Shown: one piece after another, positions 21,800-26,489 of the stretch | Layout: every line of letters begins with the position of its first letter | Numbering within the stretch: position 1 is the stretch's first letter | NCBI GenBank assembly: GCA_016194585.1 | Contig: JACQBG010000014.1 | Coordinates: 1 to 40,195, forward strand | Length of the DNA stretch: 40,195 bases | DNA from: Gemmatimonadota bacterium | GTDB taxonomy: Bacteria > Gemmatimonadota > Gemmatimonadetes > Gemmatimonadales > Gemmatimonadaceae | Direction of reading: 5' to 3' | Made by a program: the position numbers and the translations under genes | The notes under the pieces: generated by a model | Databases searched by the model: none | Seen by the model: the letters and a program-made list of their open reading frames with translations, nothing else | What the model was told of the DNA's origin: nothing

Positions 21800-23221
21800 C
21801 TAGAAGAGCCCGACCTTGCCCTTCACCGACGCGATGAGCTTCGCCGGGTCGTAGGCGACGCCCTGCCTGAAAACTAGCTCCACGTTGCGCAGGTCCGCGA
21901 TGTGCGCCGACGGGTCGCCGGCGATCACGACGAGGTCGGCCTGCTTGCCCACCGCGAGCGAGCCCACGCGGTCGTTACGCTTCAGATACGTCGCACCGTT
22001 GAGCGTGCCCACGCGGATCGCCTCGAGCGGCGTGAGTCCCGCGTCGACGAGCAACTCCAGCGCGCGCTGGTCCGAGTAACCGGGGATCACCCCGCCGCCA
22101 CCCGTGGGGTCGGTGCCGGCGACGAGCAGCCCGCCGGCGCGGAAGAATGCCACCTCCATCGCCCCGGCCTTCGGGAAGAGCGTCGCCCACACGCTCGACG
22201 GATTGCGCTGCGCCGCCGCGTACCGCTGCTCGAACTGCTCCTTGAGCTGCGGCGTGAGCACGTCCTGTCCCGGCGGCATCGGGTGTCCGGGGGTGAACGT
22301 CTCGAAGATCGTGAGTGTCGAGGTGAGCGCGACCTTGCGGCGCACGAGGTCGGCGACGAGCGACGTGAAAGGCTCCCCCTTGGGGTCGACCGCGATGAGC
22401 GACGCCTGCACCTTGGCCTGAGCCGGACACTCGTCGGGCTTCTTGTCGGCGACGAAGTCACTCGACGCGAGGAACCCGTGCTCGAGGTCGTCGATGCCCG
22501 CCGAGGCGGCCTCGCGATACGTCACCGAGCAGAGGTGCCCGGTGATCTTGTAGCCGCGCGCGTGCGCCGCGACCGCGGCCGCGTGCAGCTCGGCGCGCGT
22601 GATGTGCATGTACGCCTTGTACGACGTGGCACCCTCGTCGGCCCAGAAGTTCACTTCGCGCGTCGCGTCGGCGGCGTTCTTGAGTTCGCGCACCTGGCCG
22701 AGGCCGAGCCCCGGTCCCTCGAGGTACGGGGCGGTCGCGTCGAGCCACGGCCCCGGCTTCTGTCCCGCGTCGATGGCGCGCTTGATGGCGAGCTCGCCGT
22801 AGCCGTTCATGTTGCCGCCGGTGCGCATCGACGTCACGCCGCCGGCGAGGTAGAGTCGCGTGAAGCTCTCGGCAAGATTGCCGTACACGCCGGGGCCGGT
22901 GGGGTAGAACAGGTGCTCGTGCACCATCACGAGCCCCGGGATGACGCTCTTGCCGGCGAGGTCCATCACCAGCGCGCCGGCGGGGATGGCGACCGTGCCG
23001 TCGTCCCCGAGCGCGGCGATCGTGCCGTCGCGCAGCACCAGCGTCTGATTCGACTTCGGCGCGGCGCCGGTGCCGTCGATCACGCGGGCGTGCGTGAGCG
23101 CGATGAGATTCGAATCCGTTCGAACGTACGTTCGAACATTGGCTGATAGCGCGGGGCGCTGGGCGCGTGCCGGGCCGGCCAGTGCCGCCGCGAAGGCTGC
23201 GAACTGCAACGACCTTCTCAC
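21800..23221 (-). CDS. Exported amidohydrolase (imidazolonepropionase-like)
   Basis: 473 residues with a signal peptide directly after the GTG start (RRSLQFAAFAAALAGPARAQ). The metal-dependent amidohydrolase body follows: HEH in VMVHEHLFYPTG, Lys in TSYKAYMHITRAEL, His in GYKITGHLC and in DDLEHGF, and Asp in LVAGTDPTGGG, then the C-terminal small domain (VGSLAVGKQADLVVIAGDP). It probably hydrolyses a cyclic amide or peptide-like bond in the periplasm. The GTG at 23221 lies at the base of a long repeat hairpin and no Shine-Dalgarno sequence is visible, so initiation here may be weak or structured. A 20-bp perfect palindrome lies inside the coding region at 23118-23137. Confidence 0.87.
   Translation of the reverse strand: MRRSLQFAAFAAALAGPARAQRPALSANVRTYVRTDSNLIALTHARVIDGTGAAPKSNQTLVLRDGTIAALGDDGTVAIPAGALVMDLAGKSVIPGLVMVHEHLFYPTGPGVYGNLAESFTRLYLAGGVTSMRTGGNMNGYGELAIKRAIDAGQKPGPWLDATAPYLEGPGLGLGQVRELKNAADATREVNFWADEGATSYKAYMHITRAELHAAAVAAHARGYKITGHLCSVTYREAASAGIDDLEHGFLASSDFVADKKPDECPAQAKVQASLIAVDPKGEPFTSLVADLVRRKVALTSTLTIFETFTPGHPMPPGQDVLTPQLKEQFEQRYAAAQRNPSSVWATLFPKAGAMEVAFFRAGGLLVAGTDPTGGGGVIPGYSDQRALELLVDAGLTPLEAIRVGTLNGATYLKRNDRVGSLAVGKQADLVVIAGDPSAHIADLRNVELVFRQGVAYDPAKLIASVKGKVGLF
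23118..23137. repeat. Perfect 20-bp palindrome inside the amidohydrolase gene
   Basis: GTTCGAACGTACGTTCGAAC is identical to its reverse complement and AT-richer than its surroundings. It encodes NVRTYVRT just after the signal peptide cleavage site. It could be a protein-binding site or a chance result of repeated Val-Arg-Thr codons. Confidence 0.6.
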
Positions 23222-23297
23222 CGCAGAGGACGCGGAGGACGCTGAGGACTTCAAATGCCGGCCTGAAGTCCTCCGCGTCCTCTGCGTCCTCTGCGGT
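23220..23297. repeat. GAGGACGC-type inverted repeat (copy 1)
   Basis: Two 34-bp arms (23220-23253 and 23264-23297) differ at only two positions and enclose a 10-base loop. Each arm is built of 9-base units of the form GAGGACGCN, which on one strand read Glu-Asp-Ala. It lies between the acetamidase stop (23320) and the amidohydrolase start. It could act as an intergenic terminator or an mRNA-stabilising stem. Purine-rich repeats of this kind are scattered in several phyla and often read into the ends of proteins. The second copy lies at 24330-24469. Confidence 0.85.
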
Positions 23298-23319: not shown

Positions 23320-24492
23320 TCACTTCCGCGCCCCGGCCAGCACCGACTTCGCGATCATCATGTGCACTCCCACGTTGCCGTCCACGAGCTGCGTGATGTG
23401 CAGGTCCGCCGCCATCGACGCGGCCTGGTACGCCTCGGTCTGCGTGATCCCCTTCGTCTCCATCAGGAACTTCACCATCTGCCGTATCGCCACCTGCGTA
23501 GCCACGGTGAGACTCGTGTCGGTCCCCATCACGATCCAGTGCGTGGGGGTCTCGATGCGCGGCCAGTCGAGCTTCATGTCCTTGCGCACGACGAGCTGGA
23601 TGCGGCCGCGGAGGTCGGTCTCGATGGCCGTCTGGTCCACCTCGCCGTCGCCCTGCGCGGCGTGGCCGTCGCCGATCTCGAGCAGCGCGCCCTTCGTGAA
23701 GACGGGCACGTAGAGCGTCGTACCGGCGACGAGCTCGCGGTTGTCCATGTTCCCCGCGTGCGGGCCGGGTGGATTGCTGCTCACGCGGCCGAGCGAGGCG
23801 GCCGGCGCGACGCCCATCGAGCCCCAGAACGGCCGCAGCGGCACGACGATCCCCGGCGCGACCTCGGCGGTCATCCGCTGCCGGTCGAGCGCGATGAGGC
23901 GGCTGCCGCGCACCTCGCACAGCTCGCGGAGGAAGCCGCTGCAGCCGTTGTAGCCGTAGGCGAGCGGGAGCGTGATCGACTGGATGCGCACCTCGAGCAC
24001 GTCGCCCGAGTCGGCGCCTTCGACATAGATGGGGCCGGTGAGGATGTGGCCGCCGGGCCCCTTCAGCGAGCCGGTGTCCTGCGCGACGATGTCGCGGAGG
24101 TCCTGCGGCACGTCGGCCGGCTTCACTCCCATCCGCTCGAGGCCGACGGGGGTGTTGGTGAGCATCGTCTCGACGTCGACGATGTCGCCGTTCTTCACGC
24201 GCAGCGCGGGTTTCGCTTCGGACCAGTAATAGCCGTAGGCGACGGTGGCCGGCGTGGCGGGGAGCTGGTGGACGGTCGGCGACTGCGCGGCGAGTGGGGC
24301 GGAGACAAGAGCGGCGAGCAACAGCAATTCTACCGCGGAGGACGCAGAGGACGCAGAGGACTGCAAGTACTTGTACGTGCGGTCCTTCGTGCCCTCCGTG
24401 TCCTCCGTGGTGAAAGCCGTTGCCGTTGCCGTTGCCTCTGCGTCCTCCGCGTCCTCTGCGGTAGAATTCGCAGTCGTCTCGAACCTCCTCAC
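23320..24492 (-). CDS. Acetamidase/formamidase family protein with a repeat-encoded insert in its signal peptide
   Basis: 390 residues from GTG. The body, residues about 70-390, matches the FmdA/AmdA family: GPIYVEGADSGDVLEVRI, PHAGNMDNRELVAGTTLYVP, FTKGALLEIGDGHAAQGDGE and the C-terminal ETKGITQTEAYQAASMAADL. These enzymes release ammonia from short amides. The GTG at 24492 overlaps the peptidase stop by 4 bp (GTGA), a strong sign of the real start. It begins MRRFETTA, but the hydrophobic signal core (LLLLAALVSAPLAAQ) appears only at residues 56-70. In between are about 46 residues encoded by a repeat (TAEDAEDAE ... SSASSASSAV). A TTG at residue 56 is an alternative start giving a very short signal. 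Export may be impaired. Confidence 0.85.
   Translation of the reverse strand: MRRFETTANSTAEDAEDAEATATATAFTTEDTEGTKDRTYKYLQSSASSASSAVELLLLAALVSAPLAAQSPTVHQLPATPATVAYGYYWSEAKPALRVKNGDIVDVETMLTNTPVGLERMGVKPADVPQDLRDIVAQDTGSLKGPGGHILTGPIYVEGADSGDVLEVRIQSITLPLAYGYNGCSGFLRELCEVRGSRLIALDRQRMTAEVAPGIVVPLRPFWGSMGVAPAASLGRVSSNPPGPHAGNMDNRELVAGTTLYVPVFTKGALLEIGDGHAAQGDGEVDQTAIETDLRGRIQLVVRKDMKLDWPRIETPTHWIVMGTDTSLTVATQVAIRQMVKFLMETKGITQTEAYQAASMAADLHITQLVDGNVGVHMMIAKSVLAGARK
24330..24469. repeat. Composite GAGGACGC-type inverted repeat (copy 2), read through in the acetamidase gene
   Basis: The outer arms run GAATTCTACCGCAGAGGACG and its near mirror CCGCGGTAGAATT, each about 34 bp with two mismatches, and are bounded by GAATT on both sides. 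The inside carries a second repeat type (CACCACGGAGGACACGGAGG, complement of about 24391-24411) and three GTTGCC hexamers (24416-24434). The distance between the two GAATT boundaries is 139 bp, not a multiple of 3, yet the present reading frame stays open across the whole element. Confidence 0.85.
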
Positions 24493-26489
24493 GGCTTCAC
24501 TCCCGACTGTCGTGTCCATGTGTTGTCGTTCGGGTTCCGGTCCGGGAACCGCCGCATCGGGTCGAGCGTGATCGATTCGATCGTGCGCCCGCCGAAATCG
24601 AGCACGGCCTTGTAGCTCTTGCTGCCGTTGAACCAGACGTCCACCGGCCAGGTGACGACCGCCGTCGTCGGGTCGGTCATGACGGCGTTCTTCATCGGCG
24701 CGATCGCCGGGCCATCGGGCGCGAACTGCACCTTGAGCACGATCGGCGACGGCATCTGCCCGTCCTGCCGCACCGTCACGGTCGTGCGCGTACCGCTCGT
24801 CGTGACGCCGGCGATGGAGCCATCGACGCTCTCCGTCGTGAACAGCCAGTAGTTCCAGAACCAGCCGAGCTCGCTCGCATGGTTCTTGAGCGCGTTGCTC
24901 ATGAAGAAGACGTAGTCCCACGGCGACGGGTGCTTGAACATCCAGGCGCGCGCCCACTCGCGGTGCGCGCGCTGCACGGCGCTGTCGCCGACGATGCCGC
25001 CGAGCATCGACAACATCATGGGCGTCTTGCTGTACGTCGTGAATCCGTAGAACTGCGGACCGTCGTAGTTCGCGTTCCACATCATCGGCGGCTCGGCTTC
25101 TTCGCCGCTGACGCGCCCGTAGCTCTGCCCCGGGCCGTCGAGGTTGGCGGGACGCGCGGCACGGTCGGCCGCCGAGAGGATGTTCATGTACTGGTTGAAC
25201 CCCTCGTCCATCCAGCCGTACCAGGTCTCGTTGTTGCTGACCGTCATCGGCCACCACTGATGACCGGTCTCGTGGTCGGCGGCGCCGCGATTGGAGTTGA
25301 TCACCATCGGGTACTCCATGCCGGCGCTGGGCCCGTCCTGCAGCGTGAGTTGCGGGAACTGGTAGGGGAACCATTGCTTCGAGTAGAACTCGAGGGCGTG
25401 GCGCGCGATCTGTCCGGCGTCGGCGTAGAGCGCCGAATCGCCCGGGAGGTAGTACATGTTGACCGGCAAGGCGCCCTTGGTCGGGATGGTCGCGCGCGTC
25501 GCCTTCCACACGAACTTCTTCGCGGTGGCCCAGGCGAAGTCGTTGACGGTGTCGGCGACGAAGTGCCACACCAGCCGGTCGCCGGCGGCTGTGGCTCTCC
25601 CCGGTCCGATCTCGTCTGGCCCGACGATCGTGCGCACCTCGTCCGATTCGAGCACGTGCGTGAGCCGCTCACGTGCCGCGGGGGTGAGCACGTCCTTGGC
25701 ATTCTGCAGCACGCCGGTGCCACTCACGATCCACCCCGCCGGGACGTCGATCTTCACGTCGAAGCGGCCGAAGTTGTTGTAGAACTCCGAAGGGCCGAGG
25801 TACAGCTCGGGATCCCAGCCGCGCAGGTCGTCGTACATGGCGACGCGCGGATACCACTGCGTGGGCTGGTAGAGCGTGTCGGCCCAGCGCTGCGTCATGC
25901 GGTGGGCGACGCCCGGACCGCCGGGCACCTTGTGGCTCCACGCGATCTCGAGCGTCGCGCGCCCATGCGCGGGGATCGGCTTGGCGAGCTCGATCGTCGC
26001 GCGCGTGGTCGCGAGTCCGCTCACGCGGTTCTCCGAGGGAGCCGGCGGCGGCGCGCCGCGGGCGCCCCGGGCCGCGGGCGCCGGCGAGAGGTTCACCGGC
26101 TGTCCATCGACGCTCATGCGCGAGATGGCGAATCCGTCGGTGAGCTCGGCGGGCACCCACGGCACGGCGCGCGGCACGTTGAACAGGAACATGTTCATGT
26201 CGAGGCGCAGGACGATCGTCCGCAGCTCGTCGGGGCTGTTGTTCTGCAGCGCGATCGTCTCGTGCCCCGAGATGCGCGAAGTGGCCGGGTCGAGCCGCGC
26301 GTCGATCGTGTAATCGGTGCGCAGCTGCCAGTACTTGCTGGTGGGACGCCCGGTCGAATCGCGCGTCCCCGCCGCGAGCGCCTTGCGCATGATGTTCGTG
26401 ATCGGCACGTCGCGCCGGATGGCGCGCTCCGGCGCCTGCGCCAACACGAGAACCGGGACGAGCGACGCGAGGAGCAGTGTGCGAGTCAT
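24489..26489 (-). CDS. Exported M1 family metallopeptidase (first of two)
   Basis: 666 residues with a signal peptide (MTRTLLLASLVPVLVLAQA). The zinc site is intact: HETGH at residues 406-410 and the third ligand Glu429 in WYGWMDEG, the gluzincin spacing HExxH-x18-E. The upstream substrate motif is GMEYPMV rather than the classical GxMEN, common in this branch of M1 relatives. A Pro/Ala-rich insert (about residues 150-170) lies in the N-terminal beta domain. It probably trims peptides in the periplasm. The ATG at 26489 is chosen for the signal peptide. The stop overlaps the acetamidase start by 4 bp, so the two are coupled. A hairpin lies upstream between it and the second M1 gene. Confidence 0.92.
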   Translation of the reverse strand: MTRTLLLASLVPVLVLAQAPERAIRRDVPITNIMRKALAAGTRDSTGRPTSKYWQLRTDYTIDARLDPATSRISGHETIALQNNSPDELRTIVLRLDMNMFLFNVPRAVPWVPAELTDGFAISRMSVDGQPVNLSPAPAARGARGAPPPAPSENRVSGLATTRATIELAKPIPAHGRATLEIAWSHKVPGGPGVAHRMTQRWADTLYQPTQWYPRVAMYDDLRGWDPELYLGPSEFYNNFGRFDVKIDVPAGWIVSGTGVLQNAKDVLTPAARERLTHVLESDEVRTIVGPDEIGPGRATAAGDRLVWHFVADTVNDFAWATAKKFVWKATRATIPTKGALPVNMYYLPGDSALYADAGQIARHALEFYSKQWFPYQFPQLTLQDGPSAGMEYPMVINSNRGAADHETGHQWWPMTVSNNETWYGWMDEGFNQYMNILSAADRAARPANLDGPGQSYGRVSGEEAEPPMMWNANYDGPQFYGFTTYSKTPMMLSMLGGIVGDSAVQRAHREWARAWMFKHPSPWDYVFFMSNALKNHASELGWFWNYWLFTTESVDGSIAGVTTSGTRTTVTVRQDGQMPSPIVLKVQFAPDGPAIAPMKNAVMTDPTTAVVTWPVDVWFNGSKSYKAVLDFGGRTIESITLDPMRRFPDRNPNDNTWTRQSGVKP

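Follow-up and report, generated by a model that had tools for sequence, protein, structure and literature searches.

A palindromic repeat readable in frame within an acetamidase signal peptide of Gemmatimonadota, probably a copy of a dispersed coding palindrome

The window analysed here, a stretch of 40,195 nucleotides from the draft genome of a soil-type Gemmatimonadota bacterium, holds an acetamidase/formamidase gene whose signal peptide contains an inserted palindromic repeat. The repeat belongs to a family dispersed in the source genome, is absent from the orthologues of the gene and is used in the same frame in other proteins of the genus, and the gene that carries it is intact. It is probably a copy of a coding palindrome resembling the Rickettsia palindromic elements (RPEs), dispersed, tolerated in frame and translated from a GTG start at the boundary between the n- and h-regions of the signal peptide. 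The acetamidase insert is not an isolated case but belongs to a broader pattern, since in-frame copies of the repeat also occur in other proteins and make up parts of further export signals. On this reading, a copy moved by transposition or a copying process of some kind would have landed in the acetamidase signal peptide where its basic n-region gives way to the hydrophobic core, after which translation from the GTG would pass through the whole repeat with its three arms in a hydrophilic Ser/Ala/Thr/Glu/Asp frame. The signal peptide of the product would have an extended acidic n-region of about 55 residues, and export would presumably still run via Sec through the intact core and the AAQ cleavage region.

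The insert and its host gene

The coordinates of the gene and of the insert are collected in Table 1. The overlap of the acetamidase GTG with the stop codon of the upstream peptidase, as GTGA, is confirmed in the sequence. The gene then encodes MRRFETTA, 47 stop-free codons, LLLLAALVSAPLAAQ and the enzyme, such that the insert is placed where the original prediction had put it, with a length of 47 codons (141 nt) in place of about 46 residues. The predicted inverted repeat is likewise present, as a long hairpin of −87.1 kcal/mol (z = −6.4; none of 200 shuffles was as stable), and the insert has terminal inverted repeats, AATTCTACCGC...GCGGTAGAATT, as expected of a MITE. The stretch finds 59 matches in its own genome (E ≤ 1e-3), nearly all of them at other loci; its repeat character is far beyond chance. 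A megablast search for this copy gave no phage or plasmid match, and its carriage by either was rejected.

Table 1. Features of the acetamidase locus in window coordinates
Feature	Position	Strand	Basis or remark
Acetamidase/formamidase gene (FmdA_AmdA), GTG 24492 start, stop counted in	23320..24492	-	ORF; PF03069, E 1.1e-31
TGA stop of upstream M1-peptidase-like ORF, overlapping the acetamidase GTG	24489..24491	-	PF01433 barely above cut-off
Likeliest acetamidase start codon, GTG	24490..24492	-	anti-SD −6.9 kcal/mol, best among in-frame candidates
GGGAG, putative Shine-Dalgarno motif 7 nt 5′ of GTG	24500..24504	-	
Alternative in-frame start TTG (MQSSASSASSAVELLLL...)	24364..24366	-	anti-SD −3.5
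Alternative in-frame start TTG of the original prediction	24325..24327	-	anti-SD −3.0
Hydrophobic core and cleavage region, LLLLAALVSAPLAAQ	24283..24327	-	
Inserted palindromic repeat, 141 nt, 47 codons (NSTAEDAEDAEATATATAFTTEDTEGTKDRTYKYLQSSASSASSAVE)	24328..24468	-	orthologues without it; repeat family; hairpin; edges ± about 10 nt each side
First arm, GC type, read STAEDAEDAE	24435..24462	-	
Hexamer linker GCAACG ×3, read ATATATA	24416..24436	-	linker enriched near arms
Inner arm, AC type, read TTEDTEGTK	24384..24411	-	
Inverted arm, GC type; gene strand reads SSASSASSAV	24332..24359	+	
GAATTGCTGTTGCTC, linker-like hexamers encoding E-LLLL, start of hydrophobic core	24316..24330	-	similar sequence beside arms on contigs C44 and C23; enrichment
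Second repeat copy, two arms, directly 5′ of GTG 23221, where the downstream amidohydrolase probably starts	23220..23297	.	orthologue starts

The original prediction had further taken the GAATT sequences on the two sides of the insert as its boundaries, and had argued that their spacing would shift the frame on simple excision. The spacing of 139 bp is correct, but GAATT(C/T) is arm and linker sequence and does not mark boundaries: one of the arrays, on contig C23, contains CTGCGAATTCCACC, and the inverted ends of the arms themselves have the sequence AATTCTACC...GGTAGAATT. The spacing therefore comes with the element itself and is no trace of excision. GAATT as a target-site duplication is thereby rejected, and the argument from a frame shift falls with it. 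Among the genomes compared, the closest repeat-free site (85% identity) is too distant to fix the ends of the element, and the edges are uncertain by about 10 nt per side because linker-like sequence runs on there. The LLLL of the core (TTGCTGTTGCTC) itself resembles the hexamer linker of the repeat, from which part of the leucine core probably derives. The frame is indeed open over all 47 codons, as had been remarked, but this is weak evidence, and was rejected as evidence by itself, since four of the six frames of the insert are without a stop.

The acetamidase was searched for in 61 genomes including the source genome, 36 of which gave a match. When 27 homologues were inspected, the insert was found in none, and the same-genus orthologues had a plain signal peptide. 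The closest of these, in genomes G006 and G008 (85% identity), also stand behind a peptidase gene; the signal peptide in G006 is MKNSRSGGSFGAEAWSRTTAAALLLAVSVTSASWQVAAAQ. Aligned by eye, ACGAC(T/G)GC in MRRFETTA corresponds to ...SRTTA just before the G006 core, which places the repeat at the n/h boundary. The sister genome G017, a metagenome-assembled genome of the same genus, gave no close match for the acetamidase among the 61 genomes. In a further orthologue, that of G005 (L055, about 1440-1470), the signal peptide holds TTTCTGCGTGGTCTGTGTGTTCTGCGG, which is like a decayed inverted arm (21 of 27 bases) and may be due to chance or to an old independent copy.

Arms of the repeat inside other genes

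When the matches are read out with their flanks, the source genome contains about 17 loci of the repeat. Each arm opens with TTCTACC, followed by 9-bp units that are ACCGCRGAGGACGCRGAGG or its AC variant; this gives two types of arm, the GC type, ACCGC(R)GAGGACGC(R)GAGGACGCAGAGGACTGC, and the AC type, ACCACGGAGGACACGGAGG. Some arms stand alone, whereas others form head-to-head pairs or nested arrays with as many as eight members, with hexamer linkers such as GCAACG/GTTGCT between them. In the examined regions of the source genome the linker GCYGTTGCY is concentrated around arms, its density being ~38 times higher at up to 45 bp from an arm than in the remainder (14 versus 10 occurrences). With its dispersed loci, its head-to-head arms and the 141-nt copy, the repeat has the form of an RPE-like palindrome of ~100–150 bp with inverted ends. 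Three large arrays (L081 2551-2684; L084 2770-2870; L085 3850-3900) have an inner palindrome, GGGGAAC...GTTCCCC, between their sets of arms, which is perhaps the core of a larger element. On contig C45 (L089 3032-3131) a TPP riboswitch (Rfam RF00059, 62.5 bits) closely follows an eight-arm array and precedes a TonB-receptor-like gene.

Several arms lie within proteins of the source genome. QueA has two in-frame arms inside PF02547 and MurD has one inside PF08245; pyruvate:ferredoxin oxidoreductase (POR) has an AC arm in frame in a C-terminal linker; the hydrogenase maturation protease HycI has one in frame at its C-terminus; and urocanase (HutU) has one in frame at its N-terminus, where the conserved domain follows without an intervening start codon. 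For QueA, POR, HutU and the acetamidase the in-frame insertion is absent from orthologues in members of the genus apart from the sister genome, whereas for the MurD and HycI inserts the orthologue comparison is confined to the sister genome. In the MurD gene (contig C21, L090 2402-3703) the Pfam matches comprise the N-terminal and middle domains only and the C-terminal part looks out of frame, which may reflect a frameshift or a sequence error.

G017 has inserts at the same QueA, POR, HutU and MurD sites, such that the insertions are real and older than the split between it and the source genome; the QueA, POR and HutU inserts are absent in the other genus members whose genes were readable. 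At the shared QueA (L124/L125) and HutU (L154/L155) sites the arms are of GC type in the source genome and of AC type in G017, all units of an arm differing together. This seems to be a concerted turnover of arms in place, perhaps by gene conversion.

The frames in which these arms are read are not evenly used. Within genes of the source genome they read STAEDAED/TTEDTE or SSASSAS/SVSSVV, and all three acetamidase arms follow the same frames. Among hand-checked internal arms of the genus outside signal peptides, the inverted ones read SSASSAS or SVSSVV at all five distinct sites and the forward ones STAEDAED at all three, for which equal use of the stop-free frames (two inverted, three forward) would give a probability of about 1e-3 by our own arithmetic on hand-curated sites. 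In Gemmatirosa the inverted in-gene arms also read SSASSAS; the forward ones read PQRTQRT, so the preference is only partly general, and a combined cross-genome probability of 1.4e-4 was dropped for that reason. Overall, the suggestion that the repeat entered the coding region by spreading and persisted there thanks to its open frame gains support from its dispersal, from the relatives without the insert, and from in-frame arms where translation is unavoidable (QueA, MurD, POR and urocanase). What counts against the preferred reading is the charge of the resulting n-region (see below), the fact that few stops occur in any frame of the repeat, the other forward frame of Gemmatirosa, and the ends of the insert, for the placing of which 85% identity is too low.

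Among known systems, the closest in behaviour are the RPEs (Ogata 2000, 2002) and the protein-coding palindromes of Wolbachia (Ogata 2005), the likeness being one of behaviour. As summarised in PMC10969869 and PMC2229807, and as far as these summaries go, those too are stem-loop palindromes of ~100–150 bp, dispersed between genes and in frame in unrelated conserved proteins, with some insertions common to related species. Unlike RPEs, the present repeat is from another phylum, is GC-rich, has arms of 9-bp units in two interchangeable types with hexamer linkers, also occurs as single arms, extends to more than ten phyla and is found in signal peptides. For enterobacteria, fusions of RU-1/RU-2 MITEs to genes have been described, including a MITE-derived signal peptide in Yersinia (RU-2/YPO1552; Delihas 2007, PMC2759123); those are fusion products of RU-2 in unrelated organisms, whereas here a conserved enzyme has insert-free orthologues, and two arm orientations and a linker contribute. 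The repeat shares with REP/RAYT systems (PMC3733652, PMC2817692) short palindromes in many copies, and its arm ends contain GGTAG; REPs, however, are chiefly extragenic, and mobilisation of this kind was rejected since a Pfam search found no Y1 transposase (Y1_Tnp, PF01797) in the source genome, in G017 or in Gemmatirosa (G033). Neither a transposase nor a target duplication was identified for the repeat, a further point against the preferred reading. The mitochondrial coding palindromes of Nematomorpha (PMC6649704) are also inverted repeats within protein-coding genes, but, in the part of that account drawn on here, they are animal, perfect repeats of up to 284 bp, with no such dispersed family of arms. 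A literature search, mainly of freely accessible papers, found no description of this repeat, and searching by arm sequence returned unrelated papers only. In the literature found, accounts of in-frame palindromes in conserved genes concern Rickettsia and Wolbachia, and those of MITE fusions concern enterobacteria; the cases in free-living Gemmatimonadota (QueA, MurD, POR, urocanase and acetamidase) suggest that the in-frame insertion of palindromes is a wider route of protein change.

The start codon and the role of the insert

Two in-frame TTG codons within or just behind the insert offer a different account, raised in the original prediction for the second of them, in which the start has been rewired to either TTG 24366 (MQSSASSASSAVELLLLAALVSAPLAAQ) or TTG 24327, leaving the repeat wholly or mostly as an untranslated leader. 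The signal peptide would then be of normal length, whereas the form initiated at GTG 24492 takes in the insert-encoded NSTAEDAEDAE and ATATATAFTTEDTEGTK and has about 55 residues before the core with a net charge of −6. An n-region of that length and charge is unusual for Sec. The downstream amidohydrolase also speaks for a rewired start. Its own copy of the repeat follows the acetamidase stop and precedes the amidohydrolase signal peptide, has a first arm that reads PQRTQRT, and is probably untranslated leader, because the orthologues begin at a short signal peptide; the gene seems, like them, to begin at the end of its repeat (GTG 23221, MRRSLQFAAF), the element end (GCGGTGAGAAGG in place of GCGGTAGAA) seemingly providing the GTG. 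ATG CAG and GTG AAA codons stand at comparable places in a further arm-bearing gene (C44:24118, see below). Set against this, both TTGs pair weakly with the anti-Shine-Dalgarno sequence (Table 1), both short forms are without a basic n-region, and nothing would hold the arms upstream of them in the frame used within genes. A rewired start is accordingly judged unlikely, and the GTG is favoured over the internal TTGs on account of its anti-SD pairing, the use of frame and the precedent of the RPEs. The core itself has a hydropathy of 2.5 over 12 residues, and LAAQ is present.

The repeat might alternatively act mainly as RNA, with a hairpin behind the GTG that tunes translation or processing of the peptidase-acetamidase-amidohydrolase mRNA, the encoded peptide being incidental. 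The high stability of the hairpin (z −6.4) would fit such a role, as would the many copies that are intergenic or in 5′ regions. The arms in POR, MurD, HycI and C44:18562, however, are without a partner inside the gene and hence without an arm-arm hairpin, the type of arm at a shared site differs between the sister genomes, and no Rfam family matches the insert at gathering score. The sub-threshold matches, mostly to microRNA hairpin models, were taken as artefacts of the stem, and a known RNA family was rejected. A role chiefly in RNA is thus quite improbable. That the insert arose in assembly or binning is highly improbable: the draft genome is in 50 contigs, and palindromes and repeats are prone to misassembly, but the separately assembled sister shares the QueA, POR and HutU insertion sites, where its arms differ in sequence and the frames are intact, and the repeat is abundant in Gemmatirosa, a plasmid record of which is matched at 100%.

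Export signals and spread across phyla

The preferred reading, of a repeat translated as part of a signal peptide, has parallels elsewhere in the source genome. Two more signal peptides bear arms, MSRIGLSLTRPRSMQSSASSASSAVKLLLPLLLLSSLPLSAQ (C44:24118) and MRERLSSLLFMLLLSSVASVSSVVELRAQ (C44:18562), and a long secreted protein (C44:23294) has an in-frame arm just behind its signal peptide. The orthologue of C44:24118 in G017 has a plain signal peptide, MRMHLGNFRVLRVVPLLALAFSTAVVRPAHAQ, making this the second signal-peptide repeat with a repeat-free relative. G017 itself has a signal peptide with an arm (L199). Among the loci examined, arm-containing signal peptides also belong to an OpuAC-type protein of Gemmatirosa (MSALRLNRRGRRGRRGEPFLAGFLCVLCVLCGSMSLSAQ, anti-SD −8.6), a beta-lactamase-family protein of a planctomycete of the Gemmataceae (MNWFWVFLCVLCVLCVLCGESSSRG, anti-SD −8.5), an acidobacterial CBM9/DUF5916 protein (MSLRADSRIEPFSPPRTPRKYLVRSIYLCVLCVLCVLCGDDARAQ), a glycoside hydrolase (MSEPQRTQRTQRRTRSRWFPLRPLRPLRFMLLVGTAASVHAQ) and an alginate lyase (MKFVRRLALLGVLCGAASLAGAQ).

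In some of these signal peptides the first arm is basic and the second hydrophobic. The purine strand of the repeat can read RRGRRG or QRTQRT, which is basic, and its complement the hydrophobic LCVLCVLC, or SSASSAS with a leucine linker; one palindrome placed by a start codon can therefore supply both n-region and core. Judged from these sequences, it is tentatively suggested that the family might repeatedly have been a natural source of signal peptides in different phyla. If so, the symmetry of the repeat could of itself encode a basic and then a hydrophobic segment and so seed export signals, a proposal that can be tested.

The distribution of the arm is patchy within the order (at least 17 of 288 genomes). 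Gemmatirosa kalamazoonensis has over 200 matches of AC type, mostly intergenic, as called approximately from GC content by codon position, and insertion into genes was consequently rejected as a universal habit of the repeat; a few copies there do lie in frame within proteins, gamma-glutamyltranspeptidase and an ArsA ATPase among them. An exact 30-base arm pattern is present in at least 31 stretches of GTDB representatives from more than ten bacterial phyla, with carriers among Gemmatimonadota, Cyanobacteria, Planctomycetota, Acidobacteria, Nitrospiria, Proteobacteria, Myxococcota, Ktedonobacterales, Streptomyces and others (L261-L291). Such an identical 30-base arm in so many phyla is hard to explain by descent.
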